Positions 14,825 through 18,860 of a stretch of 42,706 bases of DNA are shown one piece after another (within the stretch, counting starts at the first letter, position 1; every line of letters begins with the position of its first letter). The translations under genes were made by a program, and so were the position numbers. Where the stretch lies: contig CACIRR010000006.1 in assembly GCA_902589095.1 (NCBI GenBank), positions 1 through 42,706 of the forward strand, read 5' to 3'. Below the pieces are notes generated by a model. The model worked only from the letters and a program-made list of their open reading frames with translations, had not been told where the DNA came from and ran no database searches. The DNA comes from an uncultured Alphaproteobacteria bacterium. GTDB lineage: Bacteria > Pseudomonadota > Alphaproteobacteria > HIMB59 > GCA-002718135.

Positions 14825-16498
14825 ATGACAGTAAATACAGAATATAAAGTTCTTGCCAGAAAGTACAGACCTCAAACATTTGGTGATTTAATTGGACAAG
14901 AAACTTTGGTTCAAATTTTGACTAATGCCATAACAACTAACAGAATTGCAAATGCTTATCTTTTAACTGGTGTTCGGGGAGTTGGTAAAACAACAACGGC
15001 AAGGTTAATTGCAATGAGCCTGAACTGTGAAAATAGAAAAGAGTCCAGTTGTGAACCTTGTGGAAATTGTGATTCATGTCAATCAATTAGATCAGATCAC
15101 AATTTAGATGTTATTGAAATGGATGCTGCGAGTAAAACAGGTGTTGATGATGTGCGTGAAATTATTGATAACGTAAAATATAAACCCGTAAATAGTACTT
15201 TTAAAATATTTATTATAGATGAGGTTCATATGCTCTCTAAAAGCGCATTTAATGCCCTTTTAAAAACTCTAGAGGAACCACCTGAACATGTTAAATTCAT
15301 TTTTGCTACAACAGAGGTAAAAAAAATACCAGTAACAATTTTATCGAGATGCCAACGTTTTGATTTGAAAAGAGTTGACTCTGAAAATTTAGGAAAGCAT
15401 CTTAAAAAAATTTCTGAACTAGAGAAAGTAAAAATTGATGATGATGCTATAGCATTATTGGTAAGAGCCGGTGATGGTTCTGTTAGGGACTCTATAAGCT
15501 TACTAGATCAAGCAGTTATAAATAACAGTAAAAACGTTACAGCTGAGACTGTTACAAACATGTTGGGGCTTGCTGACAGAGGCAAGATATATGACCTTCT
15601 TGAATCCATTAGCAAAGGAAAAGCATCGGAGTCACTGATTATTTTCAGAGATTTATATAATTCTGGGGCGGATATTTTGATGATCTTTGAAGAATTATTA
15701 AACGCTGTTCATTCTATTACTCAAATTAAAATTTCTCCAGATATTAAAAAAGATATTTCAATACCTGAAATTGAAAGAGTAAGAGGTAACTATTTTTCTA
15801 AACAATTATCAATGAACTCACTTGGTGTCATGTGGCAGGTTCTTTTTAAAGGCTTTCAAGAGTTACAAAATGGGTTTCATCTTTTTCAGCTGGGAGAAAT
15901 GATAATTATAAGACTTATATATATAAGTAGTAATCCTAATCCTGAAGGTACTAAAAAAGAAATTCCAAATAAAAACAATGAAGATGCTCAATTAATTTCA
16001 AAAGATCAAGAAATTAAAAAAAAAGTTGATTTAAATACAGATATCAACACCATAAATAATGATACTACTGCATCGTTTATTATTAAAATTAATAATTTTA
16101 GACAATTTGTTGATCTTTTTTATAAAAAAAGAGAAGCTTTATTGCATACCCAGCTATACAACTCCGTTAAACTGATATCATTTAAAGAAGGTGAAGTAGT
16201 CATAAATAATAAATTAATACGAGATCAACACTTCAATAGGAACGTCGCTAAGCTAATTTCTAAATGGACTGGTAGAATATGGCAAATCCACTCTTCAGAT
16301 AGCAATATTGGAAGTAGTTTAAGTGAAGAAGATATTATCGATCAACAAAATGAAATAAAAAAAATGAAAAATCATCCTGAAGTTAAAAAAATTTTAGAAG
16401 CTCTTCCAGGTTTGAGTATTTATTCTATTACTGATATTACAGATACTGTTGATGAAACAGTTGATGAATTTGAGACAGAAAATCATAAGGAGGTATAA
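14825..16498 (+). CDS. dnaX: DNA polymerase III subunit tau/gamma
   Basis: VLARKYRPQTFGDLIGQE, GVRGVGKTT, CNCDSC zinc motif region, EVHMLSKSAFNALLKTLEEPP. The listed start (TTG at 14816) lies at the SRP RNA 3' end; ATG at 14825 is preferred. Confidence 0.95.
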   Translation: MTVNTEYKVLARKYRPQTFGDLIGQETLVQILTNAITTNRIANAYLLTGVRGVGKTTTARLIAMSLNCENRKESSCEPCGNCDSCQSIRSDHNLDVIEMDAASKTGVDDVREIIDNVKYKPVNSTFKIFIIDEVHMLSKSAFNALLKTLEEPPEHVKFIFATTEVKKIPVTILSRCQRFDLKRVDSENLGKHLKKISELEKVKIDDDAIALLVRAGDGSVRDSISLLDQAVINNSKNVTAETVTNMLGLADRGKIYDLLESISKGKASESLIIFRDLYNSGADILMIFEELLNAVHSITQIKISPDIKKDISIPEIERVRGNYFSKQLSMNSLGVMWQVLFKGFQELQNGFHLFQLGEMIIIRLIYISSNPNPEGTKKEIPNKNNEDAQLISKDQEIKKKVDLNTDINTINNDTTASFIIKINNFRQFVDLFYKKREALLHTQLYNSVKLISFKEGEVVINNKLIRDQHFNRNVAKLISKWTGRIWQIHSSDSNIGSSLSEEDIIDQQNEIKKMKNHPEVKKILEALPGLSIYSITDITDTVDETVDEFETENHKEV

Positions 16499-17937: not shown

Positions 17938-18860
17938 TGAATGATAAAAAAATAATCTTTATGGGCACGCCAGATATAGCTGCGCAACATTTACAGTACT
18001 TACTTGATAATAGTATCAATATAGTTGGTGTATTTACACAACCACCCAGAAAAAAAAATAGAGGCATGAATATTGAAGAAAGCCCTGTTCATCAAATTGC
18101 AAAAAAAAATAATTTAGAAACCTTTTATCCAAGTTCTATAGATGGCAGAGCAATAGAACAAATTAATAGTCTTGATCCTGATATAATTATTGTCGTTGCC
18201 TATGGTATTATTTTACCATCTCAACTGCTTGATATACCAAAATTTGGATGCATCAATATCCATGTATCTTTACTTCCGAGATGGAGAGGGGCGGCACCAA
18301 TTGAACATGCTATGCTAGCAGGAGATGTAAAAACTGGCATAAGTGTTATAAAAATCTCACCCAAACTTGATGCTGGAGATATTCTTCATCAAGAAAGATT
18401 GAATATAAATGCAGATATGTACAGTGATGAATTGACAGTGGCCCTTACAAATTTAGGTAAACAAACAATGCTTAGAGTTTTACCTAAAATTTTTGAAAAC
18501 AAAACTTTATCTAAAAAACAGGACTTGAATAAAGTGACATATGCTAAGAAGTTCACATCTGTTGATAGAAAAATCAATTTTAATAATTCTACCAATGAAG
18601 TTTATAATCATATACGAGCTCATGGACCAAAACCAGGTTCATGGTTTGTCTATAGAGGCGAAAGAATTAAAATTTTAAGAGCTGTAATGAAAAAAGATAA
18701 AGGTCAGCAATCTACAATATTAAATAATAAATTTATGTTAGCATGCAGTGATGGAAGTATACTTCCTACTCTTATACAGCGTGAAGGAAAAAAAGCAGTT
18801 GAGGTAAAAGATTTCATTCAAGGTTTTGCGTTTACGATTAATGATAAAATAAATGTATAA
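17937..18860 (+). CDS. fmt: Methionyl-tRNA formyltransferase
   Basis: IIFMGTPDIAAQHL, VSLLPRWRGAAPIEHA; next to def. Confidence 0.97.
   Translation: MNDKKIIFMGTPDIAAQHLQYLLDNSINIVGVFTQPPRKKNRGMNIEESPVHQIAKKNNLETFYPSSIDGRAIEQINSLDPDIIIVVAYGIILPSQLLDIPKFGCINIHVSLLPRWRGAAPIEHAMLAGDVKTGISVIKISPKLDAGDILHQERLNINADMYSDELTVALTNLGKQTMLRVLPKIFENKTLSKKQDLNKVTYAKKFTSVDRKINFNNSTNEVYNHIRAHGPKPGSWFVYRGERIKILRAVMKKDKGQQSTILNNKFMLACSDGSILPTLIQREGKKAVEVKDFIQGFAFTINDKINV

Follow-up and report, generated by a model that had tools for sequence, protein, structure and literature searches.

An A-tract in dnaX of uncultured ocean Alphaproteobacteria as a candidate slippage site for a gamma-like clamp-loader subunit

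Described two-product dnaX genes and the locus studied here

The dnaX gene of Escherichia coli gives rise to gamma through a -1 programmed ribosomal frameshift. Another route is described for Thermus thermophilus where, according to the passages on dnaX in PMC1088944 and PMC5009743, transcriptional slippage takes place on a run of nine A residues (Larsen et al. 2000). Two-ORF dnaX genes with A7-A10 tracts (a GeneTack cluster, PMC3711429) and the frameshifted dnaX of Blochmannia (PMC3017870) also carry a poly-A tract at which slippage was proposed to lead to two products, but there slippage makes the long product, whereas at the locus described here tau is in frame and slippage would shorten it. 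In Caulobacter, gamma is produced by proteolysis of tau, which is the only source of gamma named in the alphaproteobacterial literature that we found (PMC5009743, PMC7566177); a literature search for transcriptional slippage joined with SAR11 found no paper.

The stretch of DNA analysed here (the window, 42,706 nucleotides) comes from the incomplete 1.13 Mb genome of an uncultured alphaproteobacterium, whose order we read as HIMB59/AEGEAN-169 (PMC10308909). Its dnaX product matches the NCBIfam model NF006585 (PRK09111 gamma/tau) with 673.9 bits against a cut-off of 604, and the gene is followed by a ybaB-like and then a recR-like gene, both named by eye from their translations. The features of the locus, in positions of the window, are as follows:

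14825 to 16498, + strand: dnaX, DNA polymerase III tau, 557 aa, stop included; open reading frame from ATG 14825, with NF006585 and Pfam clamp-loader domains
14825 to 15952, + strand: domains I-III, residues 1-376, common to tau and the predicted gamma-like form; Pfam, AlphaFold
15935 to 16075, + strand: disordered linker, residues 371-417, with the candidate slippery run inside; pLDDT below 50 over these residues
16016 to 16024, + strand: A9 tract, codons 398-400 (AAA AAA AAA), from the reading of the ORF; A9-A12 in 15 of 16 clade species
16025 to 16048, + strand: weak 6-bp hairpin GUUGAU/AUCAAC directly 3' of the run; -8.0 kcal/mol for a 61-nt stretch, z -1.7
16027 to 16029, + strand: TGA stop of the +1-insertion (-1) frame, 2 nt past the run, closing a 401-aa product; TGA, TAA or TAG equivalent in 15 of 16 clade species
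16032 to 16034, + strand: TAA stop of the -1-deletion (+1) frame, 7 nt past the run, closing a 402-aa product; TAA or TAG equivalent in 16 of 16 clade species
16091 to 16423, + strand: tau-specific C-terminal domain, residues 423-533, absent from the predicted short form; PF12362 (DUF3646, gamma/tau C-terminal), E 1.7e-20

The A9 tract lies exactly in frame, between ATT and GTT GAT TTA AAT, at the coordinates and codons given in the earlier note on this DNA. The product lengths claimed there are reproduced as well: gain of one A gives 401 aa (ending KKKS) and loss of one A gives 402 aa (ending KKKLI). Gain of two gives 403 aa and loss of two 400 aa, while gain of three remains in frame. Also borne out is the claim that slipped frames end after the clamp-loader region and before the tau C-terminus, as the Pfam matches of the former (PF13177 at residues 24-184, PF22608 at 191-231 and PF12169 at 238-376) end at residue 376 and that of the latter begins at 423. 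The AlphaFold model is confident to about residue 370, and the linker that follows is its sole long disordered stretch, with omega of ~0.3 compared with 0.04 for the body of the gene. Since the tract falls within this linker, the predicted short form would have its clamp-loader part intact but would lack the tau C-terminus.

Judged by sequence, the window's dnaX has the defining sequence features of the Thermus system. Shared with Thermus, as that gene is portrayed in the passages cited above, are nine A residues within a single tau ORF, close stops in both other frames, a short product that corresponds to the clamp-loader part, and no need for ribosomal stimulators. The two differ in that the window's lineage is unrelated (Alphaproteobacteria), the tract varies from 9 to 12 among species, A9 is not an avoided length in the window's genome, and slippage here is predicted from sequence. 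The tract also lies at ~71% of the gene here and at seven-eighths in Thermus, going by the dnaX passage of PMC1088944.

We consider it fairly probable that the dnaX run is a selected frameshift site, where slippage by RNA polymerase yields a gamma-like subunit beside tau; a long and a short protein probably come from one dnaX gene. RNA polymerase would slip on the A-tract such that a share of the mRNAs gains or loses A residues, and translation of the slipped mRNAs would proceed as usual into the tract and terminate no more than about two codons on. The product would be a gamma-like clamp-loader subunit of ~400-403 aa (domains I-III), made alongside full-length tau. That slippage occurs, that RNA polymerase and not the ribosome is responsible, and that the cell uses the short protein, we infer from comparisons among related genomes.

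Conservation of the tract and of both off-frame stops

In the dnaX tree, the 16 closest species (amino-acid identity of at least 76%) form a single clade (SH-aLRT 100; one partial gene omitted). An in-frame AAA AAA AAA is present at the tract site in 15 of them, none of which has A_AAA_AAG, and tract length is A9 in one species (that of the window), A10 in three, A11 in six and A12 in five. The window thus has the shortest run of its clade, while 14 of the 16 species carry A10-A12. The sole exception is the window's nearest relative, G057, which reads AAA AAA GAA and whose dnaX is 98.1% identical to the window's in nucleotide sequence. In the insertion frame, 15 of the 16 species have a stop no more than two codons away, and in the deletion frame all 16 have one no more than three codons away. 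The residues after the run vary, with 11 different tripeptides (VDL, VEL, INL, IDL, VNL, NDL, NSI, NNL, IGI, NEI and NKV), and the off-frame TGA, TAA and TAG stops arise from GAT, AAT, AGT, GAA and AAA codons, some also from TTA, ATA or GTA followed by A or G. The earlier note had proposed aligning orthologues for the run and both off-frame stops; within the clade this comparison is positive, with the run in 15 of 16 species and the stops conserved beyond synonymous expectation.

A second tract, an A10, is seen in dnaX of one species (G003) at codon 377, 20 codons upstream of its A12, and it too has both off-frame stops close by.

As a control, we compared 17 neighbouring genes with 11-15 orthologues each, in which 21 sites (the dnaX site included) have an A9+ or T9+ run in some genome. 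Clade-wide retention was found only at dnaX and at an fmt-like gene, the other sites keeping the run in at most 8 of 15. The fmt-like run (18050 to 18058, + strand, codons ~38-40) encodes K-K-N and is always exactly nine A in 14 of 14 clade species. It shows that a run of this length is tolerated in a housekeeping gene here, and its boundary is absent from the list of codon boundaries with conserved stops in both frames.

Truncating slippage has been regarded as hard to judge comparatively because no new coding sequence is conserved (PMC1088944). Conservation of both stops, set against a codon simulation and all other codon boundaries, gives a usable comparative test for it. Only 8 of 5611 codon boundaries match the both-stop conservation seen at the tract, and two of the eight are at the tract site. 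We simulated codon evolution along the clade tree with the three lysines fixed and a linker omega of 0.2-0.3 (10,000 simulations per setting), and the probability of both stops in at least 15 species was 0 to 0.0005, subject to a simple codon model, a single tree estimate, an assumed root state and a site picked from the earlier note. With the lysines fixed, the run alone was retained by chance in ~2-4% of simulations; run and stops jointly were retained in 0 of 10,000 per setting, apart from a single setting (omega 0.1) that gave 2 of 10,000, and in 0 of 4,000 trials with linker omega ~0.3.

These simulations bear on the possibility that the lysines are kept for the protein, as a basic patch of the linker, and that the stops are by-products of AT-rich codons, with no useful short form made, least of all from the window's A9. 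KKK is indeed kept in the proteins of the clade, and AAA makes up 87% of lysine codons; the fmt-like A9 is kept in every species without sign of use, and G057 has lost the tract. However, fixing the lysines leaves the run and both stops together at 0-2 per 10,000 simulations, 14 of 16 species have tracts of A10-A12, lengths that are depleted elsewhere, and an independent site in the sister family includes an invariant fourfold-degenerate base. We regard this explanation as improbable.

Run length, ribosomal alternatives and proteolysis

An A9 is not in itself unusual in this genome, and we rejected the count of such runs as evidence for slippage. The window has 28 A9 matches compared with 21.3 expected from shuffles, and 21 of its 23 A/T runs of at least nine lie within genes, in line with the earlier caveat that such runs occur elsewhere. 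In coding sequence, A9 is not depleted relative to synonymous codon shuffling, either in the window (14 observed, 9.0 expected) or in the clade genomes (87 observed, 79 expected). A lone A9 is within chance, while its conservation across species is beyond it. Longer runs behave differently: in genes of clade relatives (335 kb of coding sequence), with synonymous codon shuffles as the expectation, we found 10 A10 runs where 16.7 were expected (ratio 0.60), 4 of A11 or longer where 11.7 were expected (ratio 0.34), and 1 of T10 or longer where 8.3 were expected. Polymerase, ribosome or replication slippage may be the cause of this depletion of runs of at least ten.

Run-length avoidance has been used as a criterion for efficient slippage (PMC1088944). 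That dnaX carries A10-A12 in 14 of 16 species despite the depletion of these lengths in the genomes counts for a selected site, whereas the lack of avoidance of A9 counts against efficient slippage on the window's own tract. The case for the window's A9 allele is weaker than for the clade, since its tract is the shortest, its length is not avoided and its nearest relative has lost the run. Being the shortest in the clade, it probably also gives less of the short form than the tracts of the A10-A12 relatives would.

The same short product could instead be made from unaltered mRNA if the ribosome loses its frame, either by sliding on the poly-lysine A-tract or by a -1 shift on A_AAA_AAA. Sliding of E. 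coli ribosomes has been found on K3 inserts; it is robust from A11 and leads to out-of-frame termination without a hairpin, although this is a laboratory reporter effect, yields little product at A9 or A10, and was not described as a conserved programmed site (PMC4363877). As 11 of the 15 clade tracts that retain the run are A11-A12, sliding would be a real rival for these relatives and a weaker one for the window.

A programmed -1 shift would bring the locus closer to E. coli dnaX, in which the shift likewise lies in the linker after domain III and a -1-frame stop follows immediately past the slippery site, as does the window's TGA at 16027-16029. The E. coli heptamer A_AAA_AAG, present in the sister family, is absent from the window, which reads A_AAA_AAA_G, and from the rest of its clade. 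The window also differs from E. coli in its conserved +1-frame stop and in lacking an upstream Shine-Dalgarno sequence and a conserved stem-loop. No Shine-Dalgarno-like stimulator was found upstream of the window's tract, and Shine-Dalgarno-like tetramers occur in 6 of 15 members of the clade and in 0 of 42 of the sister family. The statement of the earlier note that no obvious hairpin lies downstream needs qualification, as the weak 6-bp stem begins right after the run, but relatives do not conserve it: an alignment fold of 15 relatives gave no consensus structure downstream of the tract, and the sister family likewise showed none. The window's hairpin is probably incidental, and we rejected it as a frameshift stimulator because it is weak and unconserved.

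With neither a hairpin nor a Shine-Dalgarno sequence conserved, slippage of the Thermus type by RNA polymerase is favoured, the mechanism that the earlier note also held likelier. Stops in both directions also suit polymerase slippage, which would insert or delete 1 or 2 nt, better than a -1 ribosomal shift, which would not need both; sliding would. Loss of frame by the ribosome is supported by the single tRNA-Lys (UUU) of the HIMB59-like genome G110 and by the sister-family tract described below, yet we judge it unlikely as the explanation overall. The proposal of the earlier note that the tract makes a gamma-like form by slippage is thus upheld in part: the run, both stops and the lack of conserved stimulators speak for it, while poly(A) sliding would leave the same signature, and the ordinary frequency of A9, the interrupted run of G057 and the absence of the run from most of the genus speak against it.

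Finally, a gamma-like form could come from trimming of tau by ClpXP, the tract being incidental. This is established in Caulobacter crescentus, an alphaproteobacterium without a frameshift site (PMC7566177, PMC5009743), and it would serve the many members of the genus that have no tract, but it leaves the DNA-level conservation of the A-run and the off-frame stops unexplained. We consider it very improbable as an account of the tract, although trimming and slippage are not mutually exclusive.

Distribution of dnaX tracts in the order and their meaning

We read the tract site in more than 60 species outside the clade, of the about 100 in the genus, and found no conserved run with both stops among them, the clade's sister pair included. 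In Pelagibacterales, as in the large main group of this genus, there are only scattered A7-A12 runs, none with both stops kept. In the genus g4, 2 of 4 species carry an A9 whose stops have the same spacing (+2 and +7), and a close third reads AAA AAA CAA. In the main group (L118-L162), scattered A7-A9 runs at dnaX codons ~377-392 mostly have one close off-frame stop, often a TGA 3 nt past an A7-A9 at codons 390-391; the species concerned lack the clade's tract. These runs could represent a site that has decayed or that works in one direction.

The order's other family carries a tract of its own. All 43 genes read from this sister family (L190-L232) have GAA AAA AAA AAG, an A10 (once A11), at residues ~376-379, directly after domain III and ~22 codons upstream of the window's site. 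The -1-frame stop is present in 39 of 39 aligned genes and the +1-frame stop in 69%. The third lysine is encoded by AAG in 38 of 39 although AAG is the rarer codon, which creates the heptamer A_AAA_AAG. The -1 stop begins with a T at a fourfold-degenerate third position, which is one of only two invariant positions among 84 fourfold columns, while the amino acid at this codon varies. This tract is apparently a recoding site separate from that of the window. Given A_AAA_AAG, the single tRNA-Lys (UUU) of G110 and the one-sided conservation of the stops, ribosomal frameshifting may operate in this family.

Two sister-family dnaX genes are interrupted at almost the same position, just ahead of the Walker B motif, L223 by an in-frame TAA and L231 by a frameshift; these are probably assembly errors, though the coincidence is odd. 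An in-frame stop in many family-level matches was not taken as a finding: in the three loci checked, the stop is the end of a tmk-like gene, after which comes a holB-like (delta-prime) ORF in the same frame (names by eye), and the match reads across it.

We tentatively propose that the order HIMB59/AEGEAN-169 may recode dnaX at two different A-tracts to make the short subunit, the site having been gained and lost repeatedly: the window's clade would do so at a pure A9-A12 tract with both stops, and the sister family at an A10 with A_AAA_AAG, where mainly the -1 stop is kept. As part of the same tentative reading, the clade would use polymerase slippage and the sister family a hybrid of slippage and ribosomal frameshifting. 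Two members of the order, HIMB59 and LSUCC0245, are in culture (PMC10308909), so that the A10 site of the sister family is open to direct testing. If true, the two-tract reading would provide a natural series between the Thermus and E. coli mechanisms within the Alphaproteobacteria.

Overall, our results add a widespread group of ocean bacteria, uncultured for the most part, to the few lineages in which dnaX likely makes two products through slippage. They bear on why gamma keeps being reinvented, by frameshifting in E. coli, by polymerase slippage in Thermus and by proteolysis in Caulobacter.
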